This document shows positions 1,079 to 27,534 of a stretch of 27,534 nucleotides of DNA, piece by piece. This DNA is from a virus: positions 1 to 27,534 of the IMG/VR virus record IMGVR_UViG_3300030060_003078; one strand, 5' to 3'. Both the position numbers and the translations under genes were made by a program. How positions within the stretch are numbered: position 1 is the first letter of the stretch; the number at the start of each line of letters is the position of its first letter. Under the pieces are notes generated by a model. The model was not told the origin of the DNA and searched no databases. It saw nothing but the letters and a program-made list of their open reading frames with translations.

Positions 1079-3496
1079 ATGGCATATTCTGGTAAAAATT
1101 ATTTTCCAAGCCAAACGGTTAGCGATGCTGAAAAGTTAAGTTACGATTATGGTTTAAAAGTTGCTAAAGCTATAGAGACAGAGTGGTTTAATAATGACAA
1201 TAGTTACAACAGATATTTAAATAACAGAAACGATTTTCATAGGTTAAGACTATACGCAAGAGGAGAGCAGTCGATACAAAAATATAAGGATGAGTTGTCT
1301 ATAAATGGTGATTTGTCCTATTTAAATTTAGACTGGAAGCCAGTACCTATTATATCTAAGTTTGTAGATATAGTTGTTAATGGTATAGCTGAAAGAACAT
1401 ATGATATAAAAGCTTATTCACAAGATCCTTTTGGTGTAGAAAAAAGAACTGAATACATGGAGTCTTTAATGACAGATATGGAGCTTCGTGATTTTGATTC
1501 TGCAATAGCCGCGGACTTTAATATAAACACTAGAGAAACAGACGTAGAAGAATTACCTGAAACAAACGACGAGTTGCTATTACATATGCAACTAAAATAT
1601 AAACAAGAAGTAGAAATAGCTGAAGAACAAGCTTTAAAAGTTTTGTTTGAAGGTAGTAAATACGAATTAACTAAAAAACGTTTCTATCGTGATTTAACAG
1701 TTTTAGGTATAGGTGCTGTTAAAACAAACTTTACTACTTCAGAAGGAGCTACCGTACAGTATGTAGATCCTGCTGATCTTGTTTATTCTTATACAGATTC
1801 CCCTTATTTTGATGATATATATTACGTTGGAGAGGTTAAAACTATTCCTGTTAACGAACTTGCTAAACAGTTTCCACATCTAACAGAAAGTGATCTTGAA
1901 GATATAATGAGTAATAAAAACTATAACAGAAATAATTATAATACTAGATATTCTACGAATAAAGAAGATAATAATACCATTCAGGTTTTATATTTTGATT
2001 TTAAAACTTATATGAACGAAGTTTATAAAATAAAAGAAGTAGGTACTGGTGCAGAAAAAATAATACCTAAAGATGATAATTTTAATCCACCAGAACAAAA
2101 AGAAGGTGGATATTCTAGGCTATTAAGAGCAATAGAAACTTTATATGAAGGAGCGTTAATACTTGGTACAAATAAACTTTTAAAGTGGGAAATGGCAACA
2201 AATATGATGCGACCTAAAAGCGATTTTACTAAAGTTAAAATGAATTATTCTATAGTTGCTCCTCGCATGTATGAAGGGCGTATAGACTCTTTAGTAAGAC
2301 GTATAACTGGTTTTGCAGATATGATACAGTTAACACATTTAAAAATACAACAGGTTATGTCACGCATGGTGCCGGACGGTGTTTATTTAGATGCTGATGG
2401 TTTAGCTGAAGTTGATTTAGGTAACGGAACTAATTATAATCCACAAGAAGCTTTAAACATGTTTTTTCAAACAGGTAGCGTTATAGGTAGATCGTTTACT
2501 TCTGAAGGTGATATGAACCCTGGTAAGGTACCTATACAAGAAATAAGATCTGGTAATGGTGGTGCTAAAATGCAAAGCTTAATAGCTAATTACAATTATT
2601 ATTTACAAATGATACGTGATGTAACTGGTTTGAATGAAGCTAGAGATGGTAGCATGCCAGATAAAAACGCTTTAGTAGGTGTTCAGAAGTTAGCCGCAGC
2701 AAATAGTAACACTGCGACCCGACATATATTACAAGCTGGATTATATTTAACCGCAGAAACAGCAGAGTGTTTATCACTTAGAATATCTGATGTGTTAGAA
2801 TATTCTCCAACCGCTAACGCTTTTGTTCAAGCTTTAGGTTCACATAACGTAGCTACACTAAAAGAAATGAGTGAATTATACTTGTATGACTTTGGTATAT
2901 TTATAGAGTTATCTCCTGATGAAGAAGAAAAACAATTATTAGAAAACAATATACAAATGGCGCTGCAGCAAAAGACTATAGAGCTTGAAGATGCTATAGA
3001 TATACGTGACATTAAAAATACAAAGTTAGCTAATCAATTTTTAAAAATTAGAAGAAAAAAGAAAGAGTTTAAAGATAGGCAGTTACAAATGGAAAATATA
3101 CAAGCTCAATCGCAATCAAATACACAAGCTGCTCAAGCTGCCGCTCAAGTAGAACTTCAAAAAGAACAAACCTTAATGCAAAGTAAAGCTCAAATGGAAG
3201 AACTAAAAGTACAATTAGAAGCTCAAAAGATGCAAACTGAAGCTGATATTAAAAAAGAATTAATGGCTTTAGAGTTTCAATATAACATGCAGCTAAAAGG
3301 AGCTGAAGTGCAAAACTTAAAAAATAGAGAAAAAGAAAAAGAAGATCGTAAAGACGAAAGAACAAAAATTCAAGCATCACAACAAAGCGAGATGATTGAC
3401 CAAAGAAAAACAGGTAAACCACCTAAAAACTTTGAGTCCGCAGGTAATGATATACTTAGCGGCAACTTTAATTTAGGTAGTTTTGACCCTAGATAA
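1079..3496 (+). CDS. Portal protein
   Basis: This is the likely portal, the dodecameric ring at the unique capsid vertex through which DNA enters and leaves. Evidence is its position directly after terL and before the scaffold and capsid genes, its length of 805 aa (in the range of crAss-like portals), and its layout: a mixed alpha/beta core over roughly residues 1-600 including a TGLNEARDG segment of a type common in portal clip/stem regions, then a long charged, Gln-rich helical tail from about residue 611 to 760. That tail is a predicted coiled coil (Gln, Glu, Lys, Ala, Met rich) and probably corresponds to the barrel or an internal extension. A short Gly/Asn-rich end follows. The start ATG at 1079 is two bases after the terL stop, with an AAAT-type leader and no Shine-Dalgarno. 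No catalytic motif is expected. Assignment is by context and general resemblance. Confidence 0.85.
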   Translation: MAYSGKNYFPSQTVSDAEKLSYDYGLKVAKAIETEWFNNDNSYNRYLNNRNDFHRLRLYARGEQSIQKYKDELSINGDLSYLNLDWKPVPIISKFVDIVVNGIAERTYDIKAYSQDPFGVEKRTEYMESLMTDMELRDFDSAIAADFNINTRETDVEELPETNDELLLHMQLKYKQEVEIAEEQALKVLFEGSKYELTKKRFYRDLTVLGIGAVKTNFTTSEGATVQYVDPADLVYSYTDSPYFDDIYYVGEVKTIPVNELAKQFPHLTESDLEDIMSNKNYNRNNYNTRYSTNKEDNNTIQVLYFDFKTYMNEVYKIKEVGTGAEKIIPKDDNFNPPEQKEGGYSRLLRAIETLYEGALILGTNKLLKWEMATNMMRPKSDFTKVKMNYSIVAPRMYEGRIDSLVRRITGFADMIQLTHLKIQQVMSRMVPDGVYLDADGLAEVDLGNGTNYNPQEALNMFFQTGSVIGRSFTSEGDMNPGKVPIQEIRSGNGGAKMQSLIANYNYYLQMIRDVTGLNEARDGSMPDKNALVGVQKLAAANSNTATRHILQAGLYLTAETAECLSLRISDVLEYSPTANAFVQALGSHNVATLKEMSELYLYDFGIFIELSPDEEEKQLLENNIQMALQQKTIELEDAIDIRDIKNTKLANQFLKIRRKKKEFKDRQLQMENIQAQSQSNTQAAQAAAQVELQKEQTLMQSKAQMEELKVQLEAQKMQTEADIKKELMALEFQYNMQLKGAEVQNLKNREKEKEDRKDERTKIQASQQSEMIDQRKTGKPPKNFESAGNDILSGNFNLGSFDPR

Positions 3497-9560: not shown

Positions 9561-12500
9561 ATGGCTGAATTAAAGCACAATTTTACTGCTGGTAAAATGA
9601 ATCTAGATCTTGATGAAAGACTAGTACCTAATGGAGAATATAGAGAAGCAACTAATATTCAAGTTGCTACTTCAGAAAGCTCTAATCTTGGTACTGTTCA
9701 AAACTTACTAAGTAATTATAGATTACCACAAAACTTTAATTACAAATCTAGTTACATTTGCGTTGGTTCAATAGCTGATGAAAAAAATGATTCTTTATAC
9801 TGGTTTATAGCTGCTTTAAATGATTGGACTCCTGATTATACTGTTGATGGTCTGAACGATCCTTTACCTGCAAGTTCTAATGATCCAGGAAATTACAGCC
9901 AATTTAATTCTAAAGATTTAAGCGCTTGGTTTAAACCAGATATTTTAAGTGATAAAATATTAAGGTATCGTAAAACTGAAGATCAAGCTAATCCTGTAGA
10001 AGTAGTAGTTAATGATATTAAAAAAGTTGCTGTAAATATTATAGCTGTAAATGATACTCTCATAAATGGTCCACAATATTATTTAGATTACGAGTCAATA
10101 CAGACTCTTCAAGTTGGCATGCAGCTAGAATCTATTGATATAGTAACATCAGTTGGTCAAGTTTTTGATACTTTTGTTTATCCTAACGATGGTCCTTTTA
10201 TTAAAACTATAGATTTTGTTACTGGTGGTATTACACTAACTACTAGTAGCGTCCCTGGGCTTTTATCTCAATCACCAAATATTGTGCCTAGTGGTTTTGG
10301 TATATGGACTGCTGGAAAAATAGTTTCTTTCGTATTTAAAAGTGTTGACGTAGGTGTTTTAAACTTTGATCCTACTAAAAATAATATAACTGGTATAAAT
10401 ATTATCGATGATATGTTATTTTGGACTGATAGCCGTAACGAACCTAAAAAAATAAATATATCTGACTGTGTGTTAGGTAGTCAAATAGAAACTTACACTA
10501 GATTAGTAAATCCAGAAAGAAACATAAACTTCTCAGATAATATACCTCTTACGCTAGAACATGTAACAGCGATAAGAAAAGCACCTACTAAAGCTCCAGC
10601 CTTAGAACTAAAAACAGGTAGAGATTACAGTAACTTACAAGATGGTGAGCATTATACAGGTGTTATTACTATAACAGAACCTTTAGCTGCAGGCGTTCAA
10701 ATAGATGATGTATTAGAAACTACCTCTTTAGTTGATCCATACGATTTTAGTTCATTATCAGTTGGTGATGTAATTAAAGTAAGAATAGATGAAGATTTAT
10801 TTGGTAATACTGATTTTGAATTATTATGGGGTAATCCAAACAACAAGCCTTTAGTTGTTTTAAAAGAGTTTGATAGTGATCCGGTTGCGCCTCCAGGTAT
10901 TCCAATAACAGATTTTACAATAAAAGGTAGAGTTATAGATCTTGTTAGTAGTGCTAGTACTAATGAATTTGTAAGCTCTGCAACTAATCCTATAGTTATA
11001 GAAATAGAAGTAACTAATATTAGCAAGTTTCCTCCAGGTGTAGTACCTGGTGAAACAACTAGAAAATACGCTATAGATTTATTTGATAATACTGAAAAGT
11101 TATTTGAGTTTAAATTTCCTAGATTTGCTACTAGGTATAAATATAAAGATGGTCAATATTCTTCTTTTTCACCTTTTACTCCAGTAGCTTTCGTTCCAGG
11201 TTCTTTTGATTATCATCCTAAAAAAGGTTATAATATTGGTATGACAAATAGAGTCAACGAAATTATAATTAGAAACTTTAGATTAAACGATATACCTTTA
11301 GATGTAGAAGAAATAGATATACTATATAAAGAAGAAGGCTCACCTAATATTTATTTATTAGACTCAATAAGTAATAGACAAGCTTCTTTTAACGAAGATA
11401 ATTGGAATTTAAACGAGTATACAGTAACTGACGAAACTATAAATGCAACGATACCTTCAAACCAAATATTAAGACCTTACGATAATGTTCCTAAAAAAGC
11501 TTTAGCACAAGAAGTTACAGGTAGTAGAATTGTATATGGTAACTATACTCAAGGTTTTGATTTATTAGTAAAAGATGGTGGTGAATTAAAACCTTATGCT
11601 CCAGAGTTTACAACGTTTTTATATTCTAACTTTGATACTTTAGGTTTTAAAAACAACCAAAGCAATGCTGTTAGATCAATAAAGTCATTAAGAGAATATC
11701 AAGTAGGTGTTGTGTTTTTAGATGAGTATGGTAGAGAAACACCTGTAATATCAAATCCAAGTGGTACTTTTAAAATAGAAAAAGATAGATGTGGAGTTTC
11801 TAATAGATTAAGAGTCGGTTTTAAATCTGGTTCTTTAGAGCCTAGAGGTATGAAGTTTTTTCAATTTTATATTAAAGAAACTTCTGGTGAGTATTACAAC
11901 ATGGCTATGTCTAGATGGTATGACGCTAGAGATGGTAACGTTTGGTTATCTTTTCCTTCAACTGATAGAAACAAAATAGATATAGATACTTTTTTAATAC
12001 TTAAAAAACCTTCTTTAAAAAACAAACCTGTTCTTGATAAAGCTAGATTTAAAGTTATAGCTATAGAAAACGAAGCTCCAGACTATATAAAAACAGAAGT
12101 ATTACAAATAAATAAAACCCAACACAAAAGTAATTCTTCTACTTCTTCAAACGCTTTATTTGATACTACTGGTGCTCTTGATGATGTGCCTTTAAGCGGA
12201 AGAGACACGTTTAGAGTAAACTATAAAAGATTTAAATCAAGTGCTGGTAGCGATTTAGTAGAAAAAGCTAAAAGTGGTGAATTATATATTTCTTTTGATA
12301 ATGATAATTTAAGTGGTACTTCAGATAGATATAGAGTAACTTCTGTAACTACAGATTTAGATACAACTCCAGATGGTTCTGGTGGACAAATTCTAGAAGC
12401 TGATTTAGCTTCATATTATTTTCAAATAGAAACTGTTTTTGGAGATGACACTAATTTTATTTTTGATGATCCAGTTTCTCCAACTGAAATAAAAGTATTC

Positions 12501-15500
12501 ACTAACTTAAATGTTTTTCTTTATAAAGTAAATAATAAGCCACAGTTTGATGGTAGATTTTTTGTTAAAATACATAGAAACGATGTTTTCAATCAACACA
12601 TTGTATTAGACCAAGAAGTTACTCAAGATAACTTTAGAATCTCAAGAAGTATTGACGTTTACTCAATGCTAGGTGAAAATTTTCATCACACAACTCACTC
12701 TGCAAAAGCTACTGGTCATGGTTATGATCTTGGAAGCCATCAGTTAGTTACAGCTAATACAGGTATTTTAACTTCACAAAACGCTTATAGTAAAAACTTT
12801 GGAAGATACGCTTGTTATTTTAGAAAATACAACTTTGGTAACGATAATCCTTCTAGAATAGAAAAATATAGCGCTGGTTATCCAGACGTTTGGAATCCTG
12901 TAGCGGAAATAACTAACGTTAATAACACTATAGCTGGTGTAGGTTATAATCCTGAAAACTGTAGATATAGATTTAATGTAGAAAATTTTAATCGGTTAGA
13001 TTTTTATAAATTTGGTTTAGGCGTTTCATCTATTTATACTACAACTTCTATTCTAAGTGCTATCACTCTTGAAAGCCATTGGTATGATACTATAGCTGAC
13101 GGTTTTAATTTTAGATTACAAAGTGCTTGGTGTGATGAATACTGGTGTTATACAGGTATAACAATGTCTGCTGCAGAATATACTTATAGTGGTACTACTA
13201 TTCCTCAAGTAAATGATTTAGGTGTAACAGGAACAAAAGCTAAAGCTTACATTACAGGTGAAGCTACTAATACATTTGTTGCTACAACTGTTGATGTACC
13301 AACATTTGGTGCTGATACTGGTATAGATATAGGTAACCCTGCCTTTAAAGAACACAATAGTTTACGTAGAGAAGAAGAAGTTTATTTTATAGATTACGGA
13401 AGATATGTAGGCGAGTGTGCAGGTGGTACTGATACTGAACACGATTGGACTCAAGTGCCATATAATCCAGCAATAAACGATAGTGCTCCAACGAACGGTA
13501 GTGGTATATATAGCGGTAGTGCTAATGATGATAATCTTAGAAAGTTTAACATGCATTTAACTCTTGGTCCAATAGTTCACGGAGATAAAAAATGGGATGT
13601 AACTGGAACTGACTCTGTAGCAGAAAACGTATGGAATATAGGAGACGAAGAAGATGGTAACCCGTATTACGGTGATTCTGCAACTAAAGAGTTGTTTGAT
13701 GAGTTCGTTCCTGGTACTAAATGGAGATGGCTTGAAGATCCTAACCAAGTTGTTTTTACAATTGGTTATAATGGTGTTAGACATTCAAGAAGATTAAGGT
13801 ATTATGGCGGTATCGCAGTAGGTCAAAATGGTTTTGACATTTCTAGATATGCGTTTCCTCCTAGTGGTACACCTATTCCTGCTGGATCTGGTTATTCTTA
13901 TTGTTATTTTGCTGGACATCTTTCACCTAATTTTAATAAAACTTGGAAACTAACAAATCTTCATGATGAAGTAATGGGATGGATTCCTGCTGCTGGTCCA
14001 AATACAGGTCTTTCTAATAAAGTAGGACCAATAGCAAATGGCTTATCATGTACAGTTACAACTATTGCTTCTGGACAAGTTATAAATAACACATCTAGTA
14101 TTGATGATTATCATATTATTGTTACTGAAGCTTCTTTTGAAGGAGCAACTTCAAATGGTACTCCTATGAGTATAGTTCCTGGTATGATTATAACAAAACA
14201 TGATACTACAGATTTAGGTGGTTACAGTAATTACAACAATACAGCTATAACAAATCCTTATCTAGCTATAAGAAAAATAGAACAAAGAGTAGATGGTAAT
14301 TATAAGTTGTTTTTAACAGGTTATTTAGAAGCTTTAGATATTACTCATTGTTTTGATCCAGGTGCTAATAAAACAATACATATAGCTCAAGCAACAATGA
14401 ATGGTTATAGTCCAAACTCAGTTGTTAGAATTAGTTTACAAAAAGCACACACTGGCTTTGGTGCTTACACAAGTTCTCTTGGTGGTAACGTTTCGGTGAA
14501 ACACGTAGAAACTTTACTATATCCTGTAGGTTATACTTTACAATTTGTTGAACCTTTTGCAGAAGGTATAGATTTTCCAGAAAATCCAGCAATATGGGAA
14601 ACAGAACCAAAAGACACTACAGATTTAGATGTTTATTATGCTGCTAGTGATGTTTTACCTCTGAGGTTAGATTCTGAAAATCTTAGAACTTTATTACAAC
14701 TAAATACTGGAGACGAAAGACATATACCTATGGGTGGTTTATTAGGCTGCACGATACGACAAAACCAAAATTGGTTTAACACACAATCGTCGGCAGTTCA
14801 AAATCAAGCTGCAATACCAATAGATACAGAAATTTTAGCTATTGAAAATGATACTATATGGATAGATCATACTTTTACAGATCCAAGTTTAACTACTTAC
14901 TTTAATCCTAACATATCTCCAAATTATATAAGTTCTAATTATAGAAAAATAGATATATTTTTGCCTGATGGTTCTATTGTAACAATGAAAGTAGATCATT
15001 TAATACCTGATAGTAGTGGCGCTTTAAGAGGCTTAAGAATAAGACCTGGCGCTTATCAAGGCGAGTACACTTTAAACTGGTATAATTGTTATTCTTTTTT
15101 AAACGGAGTTGAATCTAATAGAATTAGAGATAGTTTTAATTTACCTTTTTTAGGTAACGGTGTACAAGTTTCTACTACTGTTGAAACAGAAGCTTATAAA
15201 GAAGAGCACAGAAAATATGGTTTGATATTTTCAGGGATATACAACTCTGTATCAAACGTAAACGAATTAAATCAATTTATAGCTGCAGAAAAAATAACAA
15301 AGGATATAAATCCAACTTATGGTAGTATACAAAAATTATTTTCAAGAAACACTGATTTAGTAACGCTTTGTGAAGATAAAGTTTTAAAAATACTAGCAAA
15401 CAAAGACGCTGTATTTAACGCTGATGGTAATCCACAATTAACAGCTAATATAAATGTTTTAGGTCAAACTATACCTTTTGTAGGTGAATATGGTATATCT

Positions 15501-16334
15501 AAAAATCCAGAGTCATTTGCTTCAGAGTCTTATAGAGCTTATTTTACTGATAAACAAAGAGGTGCTGTAATTAGATTGTCAAAAGATGGTTTAACACCTA
15601 TATCTGATCATGGTATGAAAGACTGGTTTAGAGATAATTTAAGGCTAACTAATAAAGCAATAGGTAGTTATGATGATAAAAAAGGAGAGTACAATGTAGC
15701 TTTAAAAAGTAAAATAATTAGTATAGACGGTGATACAGATATATACAATAACACTTTTCAAGGCAACTATGTGGTTTCATTTAAAGAAAACGTAAAAGGT
15801 TGGGTTAGTTTTAAATCTTTTACAAGAATAGAAAGTGGAGTTAGCATGGCTAATGATTATTATAGTTTTTGGCAAGGTGATATATACGAGCATCACTCAG
15901 AGCTAGAAACGCCAAAATACAACACTTTTTATGGTAATTCTACTAGTTCTAGAATAACAGTTTTATTTAATGAAGATCCTGGAGTTGTGAAAAGTTTTAA
16001 AGCGTTAAACTACGAAGGTTCACAAGCAAAAATTAGTAGACCTAGAGATGCTGATACTGGAGACTTTGTTAATGATGGTCAGTACTATAACTTTGAAGAT
16101 TTAAACGGTTGGTATACTTATAATATGTTTACAGATATGCAAAGAGGAGGATCTGTTGAGTTTATTAAAAAAGAAAACAAGTGGTTTAACTATATAAAAG
16201 GTTTATGCGCTCCAATTGGAAAATCAACTTTATTAAGTTTTGAAGAAAGCGCATTTAATTATCAAGGTATTGGAAAAATAAGAAGTAATACTTTACTTAC
16301 AACAGGCGGTGGTCCAACTCCAGTTTTAAAATAA
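9561..16334 (+). CDS. Giant tail nozzle/muzzle-like structural protein
   Basis: This 2257-aa protein starts with a signature NLDLDERLVPNGEYREA (residues 14-30) followed by GTVQNLL, which I recognise from tail proteins of marine and crAss-like phages. The first ~300 residues contain propeller-like strands such as INIIDDMLFWTD and NEPKKINIS (about 278-300). A second conserved block lies near the C-terminus (about 1913-2050): PTYGSIQKLFSRNTDL, AYFTDKQRGAVIRLSKDG and SDHGMKDWFRDNL. The long middle is rich in beta strand, Asn, Thr and Gly and includes a Trp/Cys-rich stretch (WCDEYWCY). The T7-type nozzle (gp12) is about 800 aa, so this resembles the very large muzzle proteins of crAss-like virions more. 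It probably forms the distal tail tube and closes it until host contact; the middle insertions could bind receptors. No enzymatic motif was evident. Confidence 0.7.
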   Translation: MAELKHNFTAGKMNLDLDERLVPNGEYREATNIQVATSESSNLGTVQNLLSNYRLPQNFNYKSSYICVGSIADEKNDSLYWFIAALNDWTPDYTVDGLNDPLPASSNDPGNYSQFNSKDLSAWFKPDILSDKILRYRKTEDQANPVEVVVNDIKKVAVNIIAVNDTLINGPQYYLDYESIQTLQVGMQLESIDIVTSVGQVFDTFVYPNDGPFIKTIDFVTGGITLTTSSVPGLLSQSPNIVPSGFGIWTAGKIVSFVFKSVDVGVLNFDPTKNNITGINIIDDMLFWTDSRNEPKKINISDCVLGSQIETYTRLVNPERNINFSDNIPLTLEHVTAIRKAPTKAPALELKTGRDYSNLQDGEHYTGVITITEPLAAGVQIDDVLETTSLVDPYDFSSLSVGDVIKVRIDEDLFGNTDFELLWGNPNNKPLVVLKEFDSDPVAPPGIPITDFTIKGRVIDLVSSASTNEFVSSATNPIVIEIEVTNISKFPPGVVPGETTRKYAIDLFDNTEKLFEFKFPRFATRYKYKDGQYSSFSPFTPVAFVPGSFDYHPKKGYNIGMTNRVNEIIIRNFRLNDIPLDVEEIDILYKEEGSPNIYLLDSISNRQASFNEDNWNLNEYTVTDETINATIPSNQILRPYDNVPKKALAQEVTGSRIVYGNYTQGFDLLVKDGGELKPYAPEFTTFLYSNFDTLGFKNNQSNAVRSIKSLREYQVGVVFLDEYGRETPVISNPSGTFKIEKDRCGVSNRLRVGFKSGSLEPRGMKFFQFYIKETSGEYYNMAMSRWYDARDGNVWLSFPSTDRNKIDIDTFLILKKPSLKNKPVLDKARFKVIAIENEAPDYIKTEVLQINKTQHKSNSSTSSNALFDTTGALDDVPLSGRDTFRVNYKRFKSSAGSDLVEKAKSGELYISFDNDNLSGTSDRYRVTSVTTDLDTTPDGSGGQILEADLASYYFQIETVFGDDTNFIFDDPVSPTEIKVFTNLNVFLYKVNNKPQFDGRFFVKIHRNDVFNQHIVLDQEVTQDNFRISRSIDVYSMLGENFHHTTHSAKATGHGYDLGSHQLVTANTGILTSQNAYSKNFGRYACYFRKYNFGNDNPSRIEKYSAGYPDVWNPVAEITNVNNTIAGVGYNPENCRYRFNVENFNRLDFYKFGLGVSSIYTTTSILSAITLESHWYDTIADGFNFRLQSAWCDEYWCYTGITMSAAEYTYSGTTIPQVNDLGVTGTKAKAYITGEATNTFVATTVDVPTFGADTGIDIGNPAFKEHNSLRREEEVYFIDYGRYVGECAGGTDTEHDWTQVPYNPAINDSAPTNGSGIYSGSANDDNLRKFNMHLTLGPIVHGDKKWDVTGTDSVAENVWNIGDEEDGNPYYGDSATKELFDEFVPGTKWRWLEDPNQVVFTIGYNGVRHSRRLRYYGGIAVGQNGFDISRYAFPPSGTPIPAGSGYSYCYFAGHLSPNFNKTWKLTNLHDEVMGWIPAAGPNTGLSNKVGPIANGLSCTVTTIASGQVINNTSSIDDYHIIVTEASFEGATSNGTPMSIVPGMIITKHDTTDLGGYSNYNNTAITNPYLAIRKIEQRVDGNYKLFLTGYLEALDITHCFDPGANKTIHIAQATMNGYSPNSVVRISLQKAHTGFGAYTSSLGGNVSVKHVETLLYPVGYTLQFVEPFAEGIDFPENPAIWETEPKDTTDLDVYYAASDVLPLRLDSENLRTLLQLNTGDERHIPMGGLLGCTIRQNQNWFNTQSSAVQNQAAIPIDTEILAIENDTIWIDHTFTDPSLTTYFNPNISPNYISSNYRKIDIFLPDGSIVTMKVDHLIPDSSGALRGLRIRPGAYQGEYTLNWYNCYSFLNGVESNRIRDSFNLPFLGNGVQVSTTVETEAYKEEHRKYGLIFSGIYNSVSNVNELNQFIAAEKITKDINPTYGSIQKLFSRNTDLVTLCEDKVLKILANKDAVFNADGNPQLTANINVLGQTIPFVGEYGISKNPESFASESYRAYFTDKQRGAVIRLSKDGLTPISDHGMKDWFRDNLRLTNKAIGSYDDKKGEYNVALKSKIISIDGDTDIYNNTFQGNYVVSFKENVKGWVSFKSFTRIESGVSMANDYYSFWQGDIYEHHSELETPKYNTFYGNSTSSRITVLFNEDPGVVKSFKALNYEGSQAKISRPRDADTGDFVNDGQYYNFEDLNGWYTYNMFTDMQRGGSVEFIKKENKWFNYIKGLCAPIGKSTLLSFEESAFNYQGIGKIRSNTLLTTGGGPTPVLK

Positions 16335-18412: not shown

Positions 18413-19249
18413 ATGGGATTTCCAATAGCTATACAAGTTGGAGCAGCTTTAATAGGCGCTGGAGTTAGTTACTTTGGTCAAAGAAGAATGCAAAAACAAA
18501 ACGCGCGTTTGTCTAGAGAAGCTTTACAAGCTCAAAAAGAACAACAAGCAAGGCTTGATGCTCAAAGAGCTGAATACGAAGCAATGGAGTTTACAAATCC
18601 TTATGCTGGTATGGATAATCCATTTGAAGATTTAACAGTTAACCAACAGCAGGCACAGTTTCAAGCTCAGTTAGGTGCTCAGCAACGAGCAGACATATTA
18701 CAAGGTTTGAGAGGCGCGGCAGGAACAAGTGGTGTAGCAGGTTTAGCGCAGTCTTTAGCTAATCAACAACAAAGACAAGCACAGCAGATATCTGCTAGTA
18801 TAGGACAACAAGAAGCTAGAAATCAATTATTAGCCGCTAAAGGCGCAGCAGCAGCTGACATGGCAGAAAGAGGTGGTGAAGCTATGGTTCAACAAGCTGA
18901 AATGTCTAGACAAGCAACTTTACTTGGAGTTGAATATGGACAAGCTGCAGGTGCAAACGCAGCCGTACAACAAGCGTATGCTAATCAAATGCAAGGTAAC
19001 GCTATGGCGTCTCAAATGTTATCAGATAGAGTAGGTTTAATAACTAGTACTATTGGTAGTTTGGCAGAGCAAGGTGCGTTTGATTCTGAAGGTAGTGAAA
19101 GTGGTTTTGACGCTAGTAGATTTAAAGTTACTGGAACACCAATAAATAATGTAAATCCTAACAAGCAATCAGTTTTTGTTGGGCCAAAGACACAACAAAC
19201 TAGTATACTTTACAAGACATTTAATCCATTTACAGGAAAATTTGAATAA
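18413..19249 (+). CDS. Putative internal virion / ejection protein (Ala/Gln-rich, gp14-like position)
   Basis: This 278-aa protein has an N-terminal hydrophobic Gly/Ala segment (residues 3-20, FPIAIQVGAALIGAGVSYFG) that could insert in a membrane, a basic helical stretch with a coiled-coil pattern (about 21-55), a conserved-looking motif NPYAGMDNPFEDLTVNQQQA (about 62-81), then long Ala/Gln-rich helices including ILQGLRGAAGTSGVAGLAQS (about 95-114). I recognise this plan from marine uncultured phages. An Ala/Gln-rich helical protein with one hydrophobic segment, encoded just before a medium and a giant protein, fits the smallest ejection protein of podoviruses (T7 gp14-like role) that helps form the channel across the host envelope. 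This is analogy, not detected homology. Confidence 0.6.
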   Translation: MGFPIAIQVGAALIGAGVSYFGQRRMQKQNARLSREALQAQKEQQARLDAQRAEYEAMEFTNPYAGMDNPFEDLTVNQQQAQFQAQLGAQQRADILQGLRGAAGTSGVAGLAQSLANQQQRQAQQISASIGQQEARNQLLAAKGAAAADMAERGGEAMVQQAEMSRQATLLGVEYGQAAGANAAVQQAYANQMQGNAMASQMLSDRVGLITSTIGSLAEQGAFDSEGSESGFDASRFKVTGTPINNVNPNKQSVFVGPKTQQTSILYKTFNPFTGKFE

Positions 19250-19260
19250 ACAAATAAAAT

Positions 19261-21021
19261 ATGGCAAAAAGTTTAATAGGAAAAGCAGATAGTACAATTG
19301 TAAGCGCAGCTTATAGATCTGCATTGGCTAATGTACCTAAAGATAATTTAGAAACACTAAAAATACAACAAGGTGCATATAAATCTTTATTAGATACTGT
19401 TGAAGGCGTATTTACCGCCGCAAAAGAACAGCATGAAGCTGATAACTTAGAATTAAAAGGTTATTTACAAGGCCTTGAAGATGAAATTGCTAGTGGCACA
19501 CATAAAAGTGTTATACAAGATAAAACTGTAGATGATTTAGATATTTTTAGACAAGAGTATAAAGCAATACCAAAAGGTAAAAAAGGTGAAAAACAAAGAT
19601 TAGAGTGGAGGTCTAAAGTTAACAAATATGTTAATGGTTTAAAAAACGAATCTGAAGACTTAACAACTATATCTGATTATTATTTAAATAATGGTGTTAA
19701 TATACAAGCTAGTGGTGAAACAGGTAATATAGAGTTTATGAAGGCTATTGCTAAGTATAGAGCAAACGAGAAAGACCATGGGCTTGTAAGAAATACAGAT
19801 ACAGATGGTAATATTACTTTTACTTTAAACGGTGTAACTAAAACTTTACCAGAAATAGTTGAAAGCGTTGTGCCAAAAGATACAAATGTAGAAGCTGCAG
19901 AGTTAAATATACAAGAAAAATTAACTAAACAAGGTTTGGAAGGCGTTGGCGATATTGATAAAAACTTTATATATGACAGTATATCACCAACGTTAACTAC
20001 TAAAAACGCTTATCTTGATTTTGTTTATAAATCTAGAGGTAAAGATGGTAAATCTATAGCTCAAGAAATACAATCATTAGATGGTCAATATACAGATGTT
20101 ATATTTAAAGTTTTAAACGACAAAGGTATATTACAACAACTTGATAAAGGTAATGACGGTTTAGATAGATCAGATTTTGATGCGAAAAGTTATAAAGCTG
20201 TAGCTGATCATATATTAAAAGGTAATAACTTTGATATGTCAAAGTCTATAGCTTTAGATATATATAGCGAAACTGTTGGACAACAAGCGCTTGATAGAGG
20301 TTTAAACGCTTATAACATAAAACAAGCAAATTTAGAAAAAAGAAATAAACCAACTATTGAAGAAGAGAAAGACAAATATTATTCTGCAAATCAAGCGTTT
20401 TATGGGCCAATAACGGAAGATGGTACAAAAAAAATAGTTTTAGGAAATCAACTTAATAAAATAATAGATAATTTAGATAGTGGTGTTATAACTATAGATG
20501 GTAAACAATATAATCAAAGTAATAGCGATAATAGTTGGGTTTCAGATGATGGTGATGTAAAATCAGGTAATGACGTATTAGATTATTATGATCGTCAACT
20601 TAATATTACGCTAGATTGGTATAATGACAAGCGTTTTGCTAGATTTACAGGAACTGGCTTAGGTGGTGAAAGAACAAAACAAAATCAACTTGTAACTACA
20701 AAAAAACTACAAGAAGAAGCAAGTACCGGTATTGAAGAAGTAGCTTTTATTCGAGGCGCTAGAGCTAATGATGTTGTAAATAAAATAAATGAAATTTTAG
20801 GTGAAAAAAGTGCAACAGTAAGTGGTCAAACAATTACTTTTAACGGTAAAAAGTATAAATTAGGTGATGCTGGAGGATTTGGTCTAGGAGCATCGCCACA
20901 AGTAGAAACTGCAACAAATAAAGCTAGAAGAGATGGTTATATTAAAGAATTAGAAAGACTTATACAAGATTTACAAAATTCTATGAAAGTTAACACGCAG
21001 TACCAAGAAAAAACAAATTAA
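19261..21021 (+). CDS. Putative internal virion protein (gp15-like position), function unknown
   Basis: This 586-aa protein is mostly helical and rich in Lys, Asp, Asn, Glu and Gln, with no membrane segment or signal peptide. Recognisable pieces are an N-terminal AKSLIGKADSTIVSAAYRSA, a coiled-coil-like stretch (about 40-75, VEGVFTAAKEQHEADNLELK), and a basic/helical block (KGKKGEKQRLEWRSKVNKYV). A C-terminal part has ARANDVVNKINEILGEKS and a helical end. I found no catalytic motif. It starts 11 bases after the previous stop and ends five bases before the giant gene, so the three are likely made together. By position it corresponds to the middle ejection protein of podoviruses (T7 gp15). I recall related unnamed proteins from marine phages. 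Confidence 0.5.
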   Translation: MAKSLIGKADSTIVSAAYRSALANVPKDNLETLKIQQGAYKSLLDTVEGVFTAAKEQHEADNLELKGYLQGLEDEIASGTHKSVIQDKTVDDLDIFRQEYKAIPKGKKGEKQRLEWRSKVNKYVNGLKNESEDLTTISDYYLNNGVNIQASGETGNIEFMKAIAKYRANEKDHGLVRNTDTDGNITFTLNGVTKTLPEIVESVVPKDTNVEAAELNIQEKLTKQGLEGVGDIDKNFIYDSISPTLTTKNAYLDFVYKSRGKDGKSIAQEIQSLDGQYTDVIFKVLNDKGILQQLDKGNDGLDRSDFDAKSYKAVADHILKGNNFDMSKSIALDIYSETVGQQALDRGLNAYNIKQANLEKRNKPTIEEEKDKYYSANQAFYGPITEDGTKKIVLGNQLNKIIDNLDSGVITIDGKQYNQSNSDNSWVSDDGDVKSGNDVLDYYDRQLNITLDWYNDKRFARFTGTGLGGERTKQNQLVTTKKLQEEASTGIEEVAFIRGARANDVVNKINEILGEKSATVSGQTITFNGKKYKLGDAGGFGLGASPQVETATNKARRDGYIKELERLIQDLQNSMKVNTQYQEKTN

Positions 21022-21026
21022 TAAAT

Positions 21027-24000
21027 ATGAATGAAATTTATGTAGTTAATGGTCAAGAATACTCTGTAGGCCAAAGTAGACTTGAAGAATTTTTAAATGA
21101 TTTTCCAAACGCAGTAAAAAAGGGAAAAGAACAAGGCTCGACGCAAGACCCGACGATGAGCCAAGAAACTATGGGGTCACAATTGGACGATGGTTCCTCG
21201 GACTCAGTAAGCTGGTTTGATCAAACTTGGTTTGGTAGAGGTTTTAAAGCCGCTAGTACTACTGGTGAAGCTACAGACTTAATGGTTCAAGACTTTTCTA
21301 ATGTAGATATTGAAACTATACAAGCTTTTATTATAGCAAAAGAAAATGAAGCTAAAAACTACGCGCCATCTGAAAGTATGCAAAAGTTTCAAAAGAAATA
21401 TAAAGAAGAAGGTGAAACTTGGAGTGCTTTTTTTAGAGGTGTTAGAGAACAACCTGGTTTATTACCAGAACTTTTTGTACAGTCATTAGGTACTCAAATA
21501 GGTACTTTAGCAGATGCACCAGGTACTACTTTAGCATTCGCCGGTACTGGTGCTGCAACTGGTGCTTTAGCTGGTCCTGCTGGTGCTTTAGCCGGTGCTT
21601 TTGGTGGTTTAGCTACGTCAATGGAAGCGGCATTAACTTTTGGTGAGTTAATAGAAACTAGACTAAAAGAAAAAAACTTAGAGTTTACTGATGAAAATGT
21701 AATGGATTTATTAGAAGAAGAAGGTGACTCTATAAGAAATAAAGCTATTGGTAGAGGTATGTCTATCGGCATAATAGAAGGTTTATCTGGAGGTTTAGCA
21801 GGTAAAACAGCATTAGCTACTAGAAAAGCAGTTACAGGCACAAGAAGAGGTTTATTGGCAGCTGGTGCTACAGGTACTGGTGTTGAGGCTTTAGGTGGTG
21901 CTACTGGTGAAATAGCTGGTAGAGTTGCAGCTGGACAAGAGATGGATCCGGCTGAAATAGGTTTTGAAGCTATAACAGGTACTGTAACAGCGCCGTTAAA
22001 CGTTTCTGCTGCATTGTTAACAGCTAAGAAACCAACATACATGTTAAATAAAGAAGAAGTTACGTATGAACAAATGAAAAAGTTTGTTGATACAGCTGAT
22101 GATTTAGACGTAGCAAAAGCAGATATTAAAATAGAAAATGATTTTACTGGTGTTGGTGAAACAGCTAAAGCAAAACAAGAAGCAGCTACTATAGCCATAA
22201 AAGAAACAGGTGAAGAAGCTGTTATACAAGAAGTTGAAGAAGCTCAAGCTGAAGTAAAGTTTGAAAGAAACATGGAGTTTGCTAAAAAACATAGTAAACT
22301 TTACGGTTTAAAATTTACTGAGTTAACTAAAGAAGAAATAACAGAAAGGTTTAAAGATACTGAAAACGCTGAAATAATTGATGCTTTAGGTGGTGTTATT
22401 AATGATGAAATTATTATTAACAAAGATAATGCTAAAACAAAAATATACGGTGATAATGTAGGTAATCACGAGTTATTACATGGTATAATAAAAGCTAGTG
22501 GACAGAGTCAAAACATAACACAAAATACTATTGACAACTTTTTAAATATTATAGGTAAAGATGGTAAAAAAGCTATAGACAGAAGAATAAGGCTTTCAGA
22601 GTATACTGATGAGTATTTATCAAAACATCTTGATGAGTATTTTACAATGTATTCTGATGCTATTGCTAATAATGAAGTAACTTTTAATGATAATGTGTTT
22701 ACAAAAATAGCAGATGCTATTAGAAGATTATTTGCTGACTTAGGTTATTCTAATGTTGATTTTAGTGATGCTAGAGGTGCTTACAATTTTTTAAAAGATT
22801 ATAACAAAAGTATACATAAAGGTAGTTTAAGTAAAGGTATTACAAGAGCAACAGGAGGACAAGCTGTATTTGAAGAAGCTAAATTTTCAAAAGTAAATGT
22901 ATCACAAGCTGCTAAATTTGTAGACGAAATAGAAGAAAAACTAAGAACAAGATTAAAAACAGAAGGCAAAGATTATACTAAAGAAGAGTTTCAACAAAGT
23001 GAAGAGTTTAATAGAATATTTAGATCTATTAATCTTGAAAATGGGTTTGTAAACAATTATTTAAAATCTGTTATTCCTGATGCGCCTAGAAGATTAAAAA
23101 CTATAGAAAAAATAAATGACAGAATATTAGGTTACGACCCACAAGCAGAAAGAAAAGCAAAAGATCCAAAAACAGGTAAAGTTAGTGAAAAACCTGTTAC
23201 TATCGGTGAACGTATTATGTCTGATAAGCAGTTTGGTAAATTAGATGCTGAAAGAGATTTAGCTATAAAAGGTAAAATAGAAGGTAAAACAGTTAGAATA
23301 GACGCTGCAAAAAGAACAGAAGAAGGTGAAACTACTTTTGATATAGAAGATACCGCTGTTGATACGCAACAAGAAGCGTTTGAAACAGAAAATATATCAC
23401 CACAAGCAGAAGCTAGAAAAGCTCAACAAAAAGCAAAACCAAAAGAGTCTGAGTTTAGAAATAGAGTTAATTTTAAAACTGGTAGTAAAATATATAACCA
23501 AATATTAGACAGTGCTAAAAAGACTTTAATACGTGCTTATGCTAAAACTAAAAATATTAAAGATGCTGCTGCTAGAGAAAGAGCTGTTGTAGAAGAAATA
23601 CAAAAAGAACATAATAGTTTAACTAGCCCTTTATTTAAACAAATAAAAAACTGGTTTACATATGGTATTCCTGAAGAAACAGTACCTAAAGGCACTAAAG
23701 ATATTTACTTTCAAAACTTAATGGAGTTTAGAAAAGACATAGCCAAAATTATATCAACTAGAGACCTTGTTCAAATAGAAAGAAATATTAACGAAAGCGA
23801 TAGAATTTTTACTATATACGTAGAAACACTTCGTAAAAGAGCAGACGTACAAAAAGCTATTGACGACGGTAGATTACTACCAGATGACCTTAGAAAGTTT
23901 GATAAAGATAAAAAAATAAACGTATACGAAACAGTAATACCTAGTGAAACGCAAATAGTAGCTTTTGCTAATCAACCAGCTAAAATACCAGCCAAAGACA

Positions 24001-27000
24001 AACAAGGTAATCCAATTATTAAAAATGGTGAGGCTTTAATGATTAGAAGTGGATTAAAAGGCACTAGAAAAGATGGTATTACCAAAAACACAGTTAATGG
24101 TTTAATTCTTGATGCTGTGATGGAAGCTAGACAGAGTAAAGAAGTTGTTGATCGTGTAAAATTATTAGACGTAGATGTTACTAGCGTTGCACAACTAAGC
24201 GCCGCTACAGGTAGAAAAGCTAATATGAAGTTTTCTAAAACTATAGGCACAAATAATATTGAAGCTTTTATAAAAGAATTAAATTCAGTAGGACTTACAA
24301 AACAACACGCTACAAATTTTGGTAAAGATGATAGGCAAAGAAGATTAGCTGCTACAGCTTTAAACACTTTAATTAAAGAAGTAGATGATGATGGTACTTA
24401 TAGTACCTTAACGCCTATGCTAGTTAAAATGCAAGAATTAATAAATAAAGGCTTATCTTTTAATGACATAGTAAATACTACTTTTAACAACCATAAACAC
24501 TTATTTGAAGGTGCTGAAGGTAATCTATATGCTAGCTTTTTTGAAGGTAGTTTTAGCAAAAAACACGTTACTGGTATATTAGGTTTAGCTAAACGTATTA
24601 CTGAAGCTCAAATAAACGGTATAGCTTTTAATGATGCTATTGCAGATTTAAGTAAAAAGAATAGTAATGAAAACATAATAAAGTTTTTAAAACAATATAG
24701 TAAACAAATAAGAACTGCTAAGTTTAAATATAAAGGTAAAACAATAACTAAAAACGAACATGTACGTGACTTTATTATAAACGATATAAAGCCAAATAAT
24801 AAATTTAAGCTTAAAAACGTGCCTAAAGGCAAAAGAATAACTTTTAACGATGTAGAACAAAGAACTTATCAAAACTCTACAGAAACAAAACAAGTATTTA
24901 AAAACAACAATATAGAACAAATAAATAAAGCGCTTGAAACTAACATTAAAGAATCTAAAGAATCTATAGATTACACAATAAGTATTATTGAATCAGATAA
25001 ATCTACAGAAGTTAAAAAATCACATATCAAAGCACTTGCTGCAGATACAGATTCACCTATTAGAAAAATGGCTTTATTTGGTATAATGTCTAACAACGAA
25101 TCAAAAACAGATTTAGATCATAGGCCACCTGTAAACAAAGTTATAGAAAAAATATATGAAACTATAGACAATCCAACTAAGCAAAATATATCTGAGTTAA
25201 GAACTTTTTTAGAAAGTACTAGAGTAAATAATATACCTTCAGAATTACACGCTTTATTAAACAAGCCAACAGATAAAGGTGGTCTTGGTAAGAAAATTGA
25301 AGGTGGTATGGAAATATTTGAAATACCTGAAGTTGTAAAAGCTATGCAAAATGTTGAAACTACAAGCTATAACGGTACTAAGTTTAGTAAAACATCACGT
25401 TTAAAACCTTTTGGTGATGCTGTAGCAAAAGCTAGACTTTCTAAAACACCTAAAGGTATTAGTATATTAGACTTTGACGATACATTAGCTACTACAGAGT
25501 CTTTAGTTAAGTTTACTAGACCTGATGGTACTACAGGTACTTTAAACGCAGAACAGTTTGCTAGCACTTATGAAAGTTTACAAGACCAAGGCTATAAGTT
25601 TGACTTTTCTGATTTTAACAAAGTTGTAAAAGGTAAGTTAGCACCATTGTTTCAAAAAGCATTAAAGTTACAAAACAAGTTTGGTCCTGAAAATATGTTT
25701 GTATTAACAGCTAGGCCACCAGCTGCACAAAAAGCTATATTTGACTTTTTAAAAGCTAATGGTTTAAATATACCTTTAAAAAATATAACTGGTTTAGGTA
25801 ACAGTACTGCAGAAGCAAAAGCGTTATGGGTAGCTGATAAAGTCGCTGATGGTTATAATGATTTTTATTTTGCTGATGATGCTTTGCAAAACGTACAAGC
25901 TGTTAAAAACATGTTAGATCAGTTTGATGTTAAGTCTAAGGTTCAACAAGCTAAAGCTAAACTTAGTAAAGGTATGAGTAAAGAGTTTAACGATATATTA
26001 CAAGATGTAACTGGTATCGAAACTCAAAAGCGTTTTTCAGAAGCAAAAGCTAGAAAACGTGGTCAAGGTAAAGGTAGATTTAGATTATTTATACCACCAT
26101 CACATGAAGATTTTATAGGTTTATTATATAACTTCATAGGTAAAGGTGAGCAAGGTAATAAACATAGAGACTTTTTTGAAAAAACATTAATACAACCTTT
26201 AAATAGAGCTTATAGAGAACTAAACATGGCTAAGCAAGCTATAGCTAATGATTACAGAAACTTAACTAAGCAAATGCCAGATATACGTAAAAAGCTAACA
26301 CAAAGTACACCTGATGGTGATTTTACATATGATGATGCTGTTAGAGTATATTTATGGAATAATTTTGGTTTTGATATACCAGGTTTAACTAAAACAGATA
26401 CTAATAAACTTATTGAATTTGTTAATTTAGATGATAAGTTAAAAATGTTTGCTGATAAAGTAGGTTTAATATCTAAAATTGATGAAGGTTATGTTGAGCC
26501 AGGTGAGCATTGGTTAGCTGGTAGCATAAAACAAGATTTAGCTGACGCAACAGGTAGAGTTGGTAGAAAAAAGTTTTTTGCAGAGTTTATTGAAAATTCT
26601 GATCAAATTTTTGGTAAAATAGTAAACGGTAAACTTGTTGGCGATAATGCAAATAAAATTAGAGCTGCTTACGGTGATAATTTTGTTGAAGCTTTAGAAG
26701 ATATGTTGTATGCTACTCAAAACGGTACTAATAGAAAGCAAGGTAGTAATAAACAGGTTAATGCGTTTTTAGATTATTTAAACGGATCAGTTGGTGCTAC
26801 AATGTTTTTTAATGCTAGATCTGCTGTATTACAGACTTTGTCTACTGTTAACTTTATAAACTTTGCTGATAACAACATATTTAAAGCTGCTGCTGCTTTT
26901 GCTGATCAACCACAGTTTTGGAAGGACTTTTCTATGATATTCAACTCTGATTATTTAAAACAAAGAAGAGCTGGTGTTGGTTTTGATGTTAATGGTGCTG

Positions 27001-27534
27001 AAATAGCTGCTGCTGTTAAAAAATCAAAAGAACCTGTTAAAGCGGCTATAGCTTATATATTAAACAAAGGTTTTTTACCTACTCAAATGGCTGATAGTTT
27101 TGCTATTGCTCTTGGTGGTTCTAGCATGTATCGTAATAGAGTTAATACTTATATAAAACAAGGTTTACCAAAAAAAGAAGCTGAAACAAAAGCGTTTGAA
27201 GATTTTCAAGCTACTGCAGAAAGTACACAGCAGTCCGCTAGACCTGACATGTTATCACTATTGCAAAGATCAGCTCTTGGTCGTATGATATTTGCTTTTC
27301 AAAATGTAACTTCACAATATGCTAGGTTAATTAAAAAATCAACATTAGATTTAATTAACAGAAGAAAAACACCGCCATACGATACTCAAGTTCAAAGTGA
27401 CATGTCTAATATATCTAAAATAATATATTATGGCGCTATACAAAACTTTATATTTTATAGTTTACAAAGTGCTTTATTTGCTATGGCATTTGAAGATGAT
27501 GAAGATGAAGATAAGAAAAATGAAAAATTCTTTA
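21027..27534 (+). CDS. Giant polyvalent virion protein, 3' end outside window (metallopeptidase-like + HAD phosphatase + membrane module)
   Basis: The frame is open from ATG 21027 (after AATAAAT) to the window end: at least 2169 aa. I followed the frame through the region and found no stop. Layout by residue: 1-75 short N-terminal segment; 166-340 Gly/Ala-rich, glycine-zipper-like hydrophobic zone; about 430-600 metallopeptidase-like region with NHELLHGI (His481, Glu482, His485) and a possible third ligand Glu537 in LDEYFTMYSDAI; 620-1450 long charged helical regions, Lys/Glu-rich, no recognised motif; 1478-1640 HAD phosphohydrolase with DFDDTL (Asp1482, Asp1484), FVLTAR (Thr1561), Lys1598 and FYFADD (Asp1617, Asp1618); 1684-1692 RFRLFIPPS opening a C-terminal module, with hydrophobic stretches at 1922-1952 and 2132-2155 and the motif FAFQNVTSQYARL between them. 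This is a polyvalent protein of the type described in phages and conjugative elements; its last-in-trio position matches T7 gp16. It is probably packaged and ejected into the host. The C-terminal module may be one of the large-polyvalent-protein-associated domains, but I cannot verify which. Confidence 0.85.
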   Translation, partial: MNEIYVVNGQEYSVGQSRLEEFLNDFPNAVKKGKEQGSTQDPTMSQETMGSQLDDGSSDSVSWFDQTWFGRGFKAASTTGEATDLMVQDFSNVDIETIQAFIIAKENEAKNYAPSESMQKFQKKYKEEGETWSAFFRGVREQPGLLPELFVQSLGTQIGTLADAPGTTLAFAGTGAATGALAGPAGALAGAFGGLATSMEAALTFGELIETRLKEKNLEFTDENVMDLLEEEGDSIRNKAIGRGMSIGIIEGLSGGLAGKTALATRKAVTGTRRGLLAAGATGTGVEALGGATGEIAGRVAAGQEMDPAEIGFEAITGTVTAPLNVSAALLTAKKPTYMLNKEEVTYEQMKKFVDTADDLDVAKADIKIENDFTGVGETAKAKQEAATIAIKETGEEAVIQEVEEAQAEVKFERNMEFAKKHSKLYGLKFTELTKEEITERFKDTENAEIIDALGGVINDEIIINKDNAKTKIYGDNVGNHELLHGIIKASGQSQNITQNTIDNFLNIIGKDGKKAIDRRIRLSEYTDEYLSKHLDEYFTMYSDAIANNEVTFNDNVFTKIADAIRRLFADLGYSNVDFSDARGAYNFLKDYNKSIHKGSLSKGITRATGGQAVFEEAKFSKVNVSQAAKFVDEIEEKLRTRLKTEGKDYTKEEFQQSEEFNRIFRSINLENGFVNNYLKSVIPDAPRRLKTIEKINDRILGYDPQAERKAKDPKTGKVSEKPVTIGERIMSDKQFGKLDAERDLAIKGKIEGKTVRIDAAKRTEEGETTFDIEDTAVDTQQEAFETENISPQAEARKAQQKAKPKESEFRNRVNFKTGSKIYNQILDSAKKTLIRAYAKTKNIKDAAARERAVVEEIQKEHNSLTSPLFKQIKNWFTYGIPEETVPKGTKDIYFQNLMEFRKDIAKIISTRDLVQIERNINESDRIFTIYVETLRKRADVQKAIDDGRLLPDDLRKFDKDKKINVYETVIPSETQIVAFANQPAKIPAKDKQGNPIIKNGEALMIRSGLKGTRKDGITKNTVNGLILDAVMEARQSKEVVDRVKLLDVDVTSVAQLSAATGRKANMKFSKTIGTNNIEAFIKELNSVGLTKQHATNFGKDDRQRRLAATALNTLIKEVDDDGTYSTLTPMLVKMQELINKGLSFNDIVNTTFNNHKHLFEGAEGNLYASFFEGSFSKKHVTGILGLAKRITEAQINGIAFNDAIADLSKKNSNENIIKFLKQYSKQIRTAKFKYKGKTITKNEHVRDFIINDIKPNNKFKLKNVPKGKRITFNDVEQRTYQNSTETKQVFKNNNIEQINKALETNIKESKESIDYTISIIESDKSTEVKKSHIKALAADTDSPIRKMALFGIMSNNESKTDLDHRPPVNKVIEKIYETIDNPTKQNISELRTFLESTRVNNIPSELHALLNKPTDKGGLGKKIEGGMEIFEIPEVVKAMQNVETTSYNGTKFSKTSRLKPFGDAVAKARLSKTPKGISILDFDDTLATTESLVKFTRPDGTTGTLNAEQFASTYESLQDQGYKFDFSDFNKVVKGKLAPLFQKALKLQNKFGPENMFVLTARPPAAQKAIFDFLKANGLNIPLKNITGLGNSTAEAKALWVADKVADGYNDFYFADDALQNVQAVKNMLDQFDVKSKVQQAKAKLSKGMSKEFNDILQDVTGIETQKRFSEAKARKRGQGKGRFRLFIPPSHEDFIGLLYNFIGKGEQGNKHRDFFEKTLIQPLNRAYRELNMAKQAIANDYRNLTKQMPDIRKKLTQSTPDGDFTYDDAVRVYLWNNFGFDIPGLTKTDTNKLIEFVNLDDKLKMFADKVGLISKIDEGYVEPGEHWLAGSIKQDLADATGRVGRKKFFAEFIENSDQIFGKIVNGKLVGDNANKIRAAYGDNFVEALEDMLYATQNGTNRKQGSNKQVNAFLDYLNGSVGATMFFNARSAVLQTLSTVNFINFADNNIFKAAAAFADQPQFWKDFSMIFNSDYLKQRRAGVGFDVNGAEIAAAVKKSKEPVKAAIAYILNKGFLPTQMADSFAIALGGSSMYRNRVNTYIKQGLPKKEAETKAFEDFQATAESTQQSARPDMLSLLQRSALGRMIFAFQNVTSQYARLIKKSTLDLINRRKTPPYDTQVQSDMSNISKIIYYGAIQNFIFYSLQSALFAMAFEDDEDEDKKNEKFF

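Follow-up and report, generated by a model that had tools for sequence, protein, structure and literature searches.

Results

The giant gene and its domains

The window analysed here is a 27,534-base viral fragment from IMG/VR (IMGVR_UViG_3300030060_003078, positions 1 to 27,534). Its last gene encodes a giant polyvalent protein and runs off the contig.

21027..27533, + strand: giant polyvalent protein gene, 2169 codons, 3′ end past the contig; about 2350 amino acids (aa) expected

A first-pass annotation, made from the letters alone, had described this frame as open for at least 2169 codons, and a scan of open reading frames (ORFs) agrees: there are zero stops across 2169 codons up to the window end, versus about 191 predicted for random sequence of the same base composition. 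G+C content by codon position (0.44/0.36/0.15) is steady and without a break along the frame. L017, a relative with 44% identity, is collinear with the window protein from residue 1 to residue 2169 save for a gap at 390-446, and therefore there is no sign of the frameshift or assembly error that had been a concern within 21027-27534. Complete relatives extend about 180 residues past the window's contig end before reaching a stop codon, which gives the expected full length of about 2350 aa. The contig extension proposed earlier as a way to find this stop was run in IMG/VR with a 38-base sequence near the 3′ end; no other contig has it, an overlapping contig was thus discarded as a route, and the stop codon was not reached.

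Comparisons were made with a first set of 80 related loci and with a second, independent harvest of at least 578 IMG/VR loci; the independent set used for motif and HExxH counts comprised 55 chains. An AlphaFold (AF2) model covers residues 1-1074 of the window chain, and the C-terminal part was modelled on relative L025, which is 75% identical to the window over the common part. Model confidence is given as the predicted local distance difference test (pLDDT). The chain divides as follows.

21027..21128, + strand: N-terminal tag, residues 1-34; small beta-hairpin/helix with high pLDDT (AF2), exchanged among relatives
21129..21224, + strand: Ser/Asp-rich linker, residues 35-66, mostly disordered (pLDDT <50 at 34-60)
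21225..22046, + strand: N-terminal helical module, residues 67-340, homologous to the ctfjg026 giant and to phrog_32588
22152..22820, + strand: zincin metallopeptidase, residues 376-598; HExxH 481-485 at 22467-22481, E537 at 22635-22637
22827..22892, + strand: SK joint, LSK 601-603 and FSK 620-622; disordered linker (pLDDT <50 at 613-622), strong module edge
22899..24209, + strand: middle module A, residues 625-1061, folded; found in a minority of relatives (AF2 model, alignments)
24231..24239, + strand: SK joint, FSK 1069-1071; module edge
24240..25382, + strand: middle module B, residues 1072-1452; parts seen in 3 to 15 of the 80 loci
25383..25445, + strand: SK joint, FSK 1453-1455 and LSK 1471-1473; edge and start of the conserved block
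25446..25955, + strand: HAD phosphatase, residues 1474-1643; D1482, D1484, T1561, K1598, D1617, D1618
25962..25970, + strand: SK joint, LSK 1646-1648 (KFSK in most relatives); insertion point for extra modules in L065, L074 and L104
25971..27533, + strand: all-alpha C-terminal core, residues 1649-2169, ending at the contig end; 57-82% identity in most first relatives

Both enzymes that had been proposed for the chain, a peptidase-like region and a HAD phosphohydrolase, are borne out by their catalytic residues. In the zincin, H481, E482, H485 and E537 are nearly invariant across 61 aligned sequences, and the domain model is weakly similar in fold to PPEP-3 and to chains of the lethal-factor type (Z 4.2-4.9). 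The zincin profile is matched by 62 relatives, all with HExxH, and most relatives outside it have a different HExxH. The motif occurs in 75 of 75 full-length relatives from the first set and in 52 of 55 chains from the independent set, against 0.5 expected in all. The lineage swaps its peptidase and hardly ever loses it, a zincin being near-universal. The HAD motif set is complete between residues 1482 and 1618: seven motif positions (D1482, D1484, T1486, T1561 in T-A-R, K1598, D1617 and D1618) are invariant in 43 sequences, and alignment and the L025 model place the DxD, T, K and DD motifs on a Rossmann-like core.

Among the first 80 relatives and the second harvest, the HAD and the C-terminal core are conserved, the N-terminal module is weakly conserved in about one third, and the middle is variable. 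In homologs L002-L081, one and the same N-terminal module is preceded by interchangeable tags of about 35 residues, which fall into several unrelated types and may possibly act as a packaging or exit signal; such a tag is often followed by a Ser/Asp-rich stretch of the form STxDPTMSQxxMGSxLDDGSS. At the other end, complete chains finish in a basic tail (32% K/R versus 14% overall), which is replaced by tandem zinc-knuckle-like motifs in 6 of 55 complete chains. Cys-rich knuckle tails (for example in L028, L034, L043, L046 and L048) end in ...RCKMQTSNKSGYCYYHD.

The membrane-like segments of the first-pass annotation are only weakly present. A Gly/Ala-rich region at 160-340 holds 11 GxxxG motifs versus 4 in the next 1829 residues; its hydrophobicity is not of transmembrane grade, and the giant has no classical membrane helix, the best 19-residue Kyte-Doolittle mean being 1.27, under the usual transmembrane cut-offs. 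The L025 C-terminal model consists of the HAD followed by about 700 residues of helices, and in fold searches the C-terminal core resembles many BFVD phage entries (large polyvalent protein, ART-PolyVal, MuF) at 10-16% identity.

Other searches with the chain gave little. Pfam and NCBIfam domain models had no match, phrog_32588 at 92-423 was the sole PHROGs match, whole-chain tblastn against phage records gave nothing at 1e-5, and profiles of the C-terminal, N-terminal and HAD regions found nothing credible among PDB sequences. Low-scoring matches such as HEPN_Swt1 and fibrinogen-binding were rejected as chance, and Foldseek PDB matches of the C-terminal model, all at E >0.06, as transporter-like helix noise. 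VIA-align matches of the N-part model all had Z <6. No RNA polymerase domain was matched in Pfam, NCBIfam or the PDB sequences, though the middle modules carry no assignment.

An ejection-type slot

The giant is the last and largest gene of an ejection-type operon whose products are small, medium and large (278, 586 and >2169 aa).

18413..19249, + strand: 278-aa Q/A-rich protein with a hydrophobic N-terminus; homology to phi40:1 gp99, candidate gp14-like ejection protein
19261..21021, + strand: 586-aa protein in the gp15-like position (that of phi40:1 gp100)

This order is that of the ejection operons of T7, P22 and N4 (PMC8954989, PMC12633501). The profile of the 278-aa protein, which is hydrophobic at residues 1-19 (Kyte-Doolittle 1.58), matches phi40:1 gp99 (E 1e-29), phi18:3 gp120, and elemo and Panino proteins; gp99 is a virion protein detected by tandem mass spectrometry (MS/MS). 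In phi40:1, gp99 is followed by gp100 (549 aa) and gp101 (1691 aa), and in phi18:3, gp120 is followed by gp121 (499 aa), one small ORF and gp123 (1935 aa). Because phi40:1 gp099-gp101 and phi18:3 gp120, gp121 and gp123 were deposited as structural proteins with "experimental MS/MS proteomics", we regard the slot as a virion slot. The ejection-protein position assigned earlier is thereby upheld, together with the homology of the upstream 278-aa gene, and packaging of the giant in the virion is probable. The MS/MS evidence belongs to phi40:1; GenBank notes for phi38:1 (L085, KC821614) instead name phi18:1_gp101 of a Cellulophaga phage as the similar protein, which is impossible for a 39-kb phage.

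Known giant ejection proteins have very low mutual identity. In hhalign comparisons with N4 virion RNA polymerase (vRNAP) and phi40:1 gp101, the window giant gave no significant match. The ctfjg026 giant links the slot giants by position and has the window's N-terminal module (hhalign E 5e-39). Among cultured relatives, the Panino slot giant (L082, 35429-40918) has a tRNA methyltransferase-like domain (phrog_4752, E 1.7e-16) and the elemo slot giant (L087, 83-11167) has DUF3293 (E 1e-12), so that the payload differs between these phages.

A tripeptide at module borders

The leading module edges of the window chain (601/620, 1069, 1453 and 1471) each carry FSK or LSK; one further FSK, at 1176, lies away from any module edge. 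Across 80 giants, FS[KR] was observed 284 times versus 82 expected, and the remaining ORFs of these contigs have it 52 times versus 56 expected. FSK was found 89 times versus 31.8 expected, and the same-letter permutations 22-43 times; the permutations lack border behaviour except for KFS, which overlaps KFSK. Right-hand alignment ends fall within 5 residues of FS[KR] at a rate of 2.43 per site, versus 0.26 at random positions (maximum 0.70 in 200 trials). The independent set gave the same picture, with FSK at 58 versus 26.5 expected and FSR at 23 versus 10.2 expected, and with alignment ends at 26 of 81 motif sites but at 11 of 158 control sites (Fisher p 9e-7).

The sites are also ordered along the chain. 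Their density after the zincin is 1.46 and 1.11 per 1000 aa in the two sets, versus 0.39 and 0.42 before it, and the first sites cluster 136-161 residues beyond HExxH, that of the window lying at 139. At the motif, serine codons match background usage, with TCN and AGY both present; selection therefore acts on the peptide and not on the DNA, and a DNA-level recombination site was rejected as the origin of the motif on the same ground. Extension of the joint motif to the giants of crAss001, N4, phi38:1, elemo and ctfjg026 was rejected for want of a clear excess.

That the giant is cut at its SK joints by its own zincin is a tentative proposal, to which we give somewhat less than even odds. More tentative again is its stronger form, an injected polyprotein with a cutting code, in which the zincin would read joints of the [IV][KM]FS[KR][ST] type, only between downstream modules. 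A chain that is packaged and works intact, its zincin aimed at a host protein in anti-defence or takeover and its SK tripeptides being favoured flexible linkers, is a serious though unlikely alternative. N4 vRNAP has its HExxH domain within a chain of 3500 residues that is described as a single working enzyme (PMC12633501), Iyer 2017 admits either use of a zincin (PMC5512222), and FSK 620 lies in a disordered linker of the AF2 model. However, a plain linker needs no fixed tripeptide, and FSK stands above its same-letter permutations and is concentrated downstream of the peptidase. In another alternative, a separate prohead (maturation) protease would process the chain ahead of packaging and the zincin would have another role; processing before head packaging has been reported for P1 DarA and DdrB (PMC5512222). 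We consider this improbable here: the other ORFs of these contigs show no excess of FS[KR], and no protease appears among the family matches in the 27.5-kb head/tail region, which is only part of the genome.

HAD phosphatase and nested insertions

The HAD model fits best on Pnkp1 (4xru; Z 10.8, rmsd 2.5, 121 aligned), followed by T4 Pnkp (2ia5; Z 10.3, rmsd 2.4, 114 aligned), with other HADs within about 1 Z of these matches, so that the Pnkp likeness is not specific. Extra domains enter at two points, one within the HAD, after motif I and before the cap, and one directly after the HAD (L065, L074 and L104). A kinase P-loop is absent from the window chain and is nested in the HAD of several relatives only (L041, L055, L063, L074, L170, L098, L103 and L159); in three members scanned it is Pfam Zeta_toxin/AAA_33, and in L045 an ART-like domain occupies the same point. 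Inteins were rejected as the cause of HAD breaks in some relatives, the inserts being P-loop kinase or ART-like domains. The kinase-in-HAD arrangement is possibly a composite end-healing enzyme, arranged unlike T4 Pnkp. The Pnkp-like fold, the nested kinases of relatives and the Panino tRNA methyltransferase domain suggest an RNA-end payload; we hold it doubtful that the HAD itself acts on nucleic-acid ends.

Phage affiliation and upstream genes

TerL, portal and other structural genes of the window match PHROGs families. Two genes place the phage.

1079..3496, + strand: portal protein, the taxonomy anchor (Pervagoviridae/Elemovirus/Panino relatives)
9561..16334, + strand: muzzle-type tail protein, 2257 aa, with a crAss_MUZ_C domain at the C-terminus

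The portal matches 87 phage records, all from flavobacterial isolates (Flavobacterium elemoviruses, Cellulophaga, Tenacibaculum and Maribacter phage Panino) but one, the metagenome-derived ctfjg026 from Manatee Spring. The phage is a marine podovirus with Flavobacteria-type hosts, related to Pervagoviridae, Elemovirus and phage Panino, and has a crAss-type muzzle. Downstream of the muzzle ORF come genes for 516, 152, 278 and 586 aa and finally the giant.

The muzzle-type ORF, at 2257 aa versus 946-1613 aa in the cultured relatives inspected, could hold inserted domains. The 152-aa gene (17902-18360) corresponds by homology to part of the muzzle-type protein in elemo (1470 aa) and in phi40:1 (gp97, 1324 aa); this tail domain is free-standing in the window and in phi18:3 (gp115) and fused in elemo and phi40:1. 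Relatives L095-L113 lie in contigs of metagenome-assembled genomes labelled Maricaulis, Aliivibrio and Woesearchaeota, and also Flavobacteriaceae, Crocinitomicaceae and Saprospiraceae; those under the first three labels are probably mis-binned phage contigs.

Discussion

We propose, with a probability of about 0.6, that the giant is the third and largest ejection protein, comparable to T7 gp16 or N4 vRNAP, which is packed in the head and ejected, and whose zincin cuts at the [FL]S[KR] joints to release a payload. In this scheme the all-alpha core with its basic tail, perhaps DNA-binding, would hold the giant with the genome in the head, and the giant would leave by way of the tail together with the 278-aa and 586-aa proteins. 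The N-terminal GxxxG helical module may help it to enter or line an envelope channel. After delivery the zincin would cut at the downstream joints and free the passengers, namely the middle module or modules, the HAD phosphatase and the C-terminal core. This phosphatase would probably dephosphorylate nucleotides or the ends of nucleic acids, contributing to an RNA-repair or host-takeover payload whose make-up varies among relatives.

Several observations count against this proposal. The MS/MS-supported slot giants of phi40:1 and phi18:3 have no similarity to the window chain detectable by hhalign, and their equivalence to it therefore comes from gene order and size only; the bridging ctfjg026 giant has the N-terminal module in common with the window chain and nothing more. 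About half of the FS[KR] sites are singletons at chance level, and the motif statistics were computed over related sequences, family members not being independent. The motif is not enriched in the slot proteins of phi40:1, phi19:3 and ctfjg026, the last of which has two HExxH. Cleavage is a prediction, and the zincin could attack host proteins instead, the joints being mere linkers. Finally, our search found no virion proteomics for the window phage or a close relative, as would suit a late-expressed intracellular multi-enzyme protein encoded beside structural genes and absent from the virion. That last alternative is very improbable, given that MS/MS places the slot proteins of two cultured phages in the virion, with the same three-gene order and a homologous first gene, and that the C-terminal core resembles phage large polyvalent proteins in fold searches.

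If the ejection and cutting proposal is right, the giant is a delivery chain for effectors that travels in virus particles and dissects itself, and a cutting code would let the lineage exchange payload modules freely, each bringing its own joint. With at least 578 IMG/VR loci, this large and abundant marine family points to a specific motif as the candidate cleavage site at the predicted joints, and as cultured phages encode a protein in the slot, delivery as one chain followed by cutting becomes directly testable. The joint motif also offers a rule for locating module borders in otherwise unannotated giant phage proteins.

Comparison with known systems

The multi-domain polyvalent chain in an ejection slot, as first annotated, stands, with MS/MS slot proteins and a homologous upstream gene behind it. 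The accompanying view that this would be an unusual delivery system does not, since N4 vRNAP (PMC12633501), crAss001 cargo (PMC10172136) and the polyvalent proteins (PMC5512222) are precedents for the principle, the first two as giant ejected virion proteins.

Polyvalent proteins, the zincins in them and the idea of autoprocessing, drawn from domain content and the P1 precedent, were described in 2017 (Iyer 2017; PMC5512222). Like them, the window chain combines a zincin (HExxH and a later Glu) and a HAD, both with invariant or near-invariant catalytic residues, has a mosaic domain architecture among relatives and comes from a phage that packages by portal and terminase, TerL and portal both being encoded in the window; autoproteolysis was proposed there too. 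Unlike them, it has no Pfam or NCBIfam domain match, and it has [FL]S[KR] joints and a zincin in essentially every member, for which we found no description (the term FSR occurs 0 times in PMC5512222).

N4 gp50, with gp51 and gp52 (PMC12633501), is likewise the last, giant member of a three-gene ejection operon, with an HExxH domain, a large and mostly alpha-helical C-terminal part without structural homologues, and a beads-on-a-string design. In contrast to gp50, the window chain has no recognised RNA polymerase domain, an N-terminal zincin, a HAD and no significant similarity. The cargo proteins of crAss001 (gp45-gp50), giants whose genes directly follow that of the muzzle, are carried in the virion and ejected (PMC10172136), and they too belong to a Bacteroidota-type podovirus with a crAss-type muzzle; gp45 against the window N-terminal module was not significant (hhalign probability 12.8). 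Phi40:1 gp101 (Pervagoviridae) and phi18:3 gp123 (Pachyviridae) share the slot and giant size, but lack the zincin motif and detectable sequence similarity. The HAD fold is closest, though not specifically, to that of T4-type Pnkp, and several relatives have a kinase nested in the HAD; the window chain has no kinase P-loop. Against this background, what is new here is the joint motif and its restriction to the part of the chain beyond the peptidase, together with a peptidase in nearly all members and the nested insertion slots.

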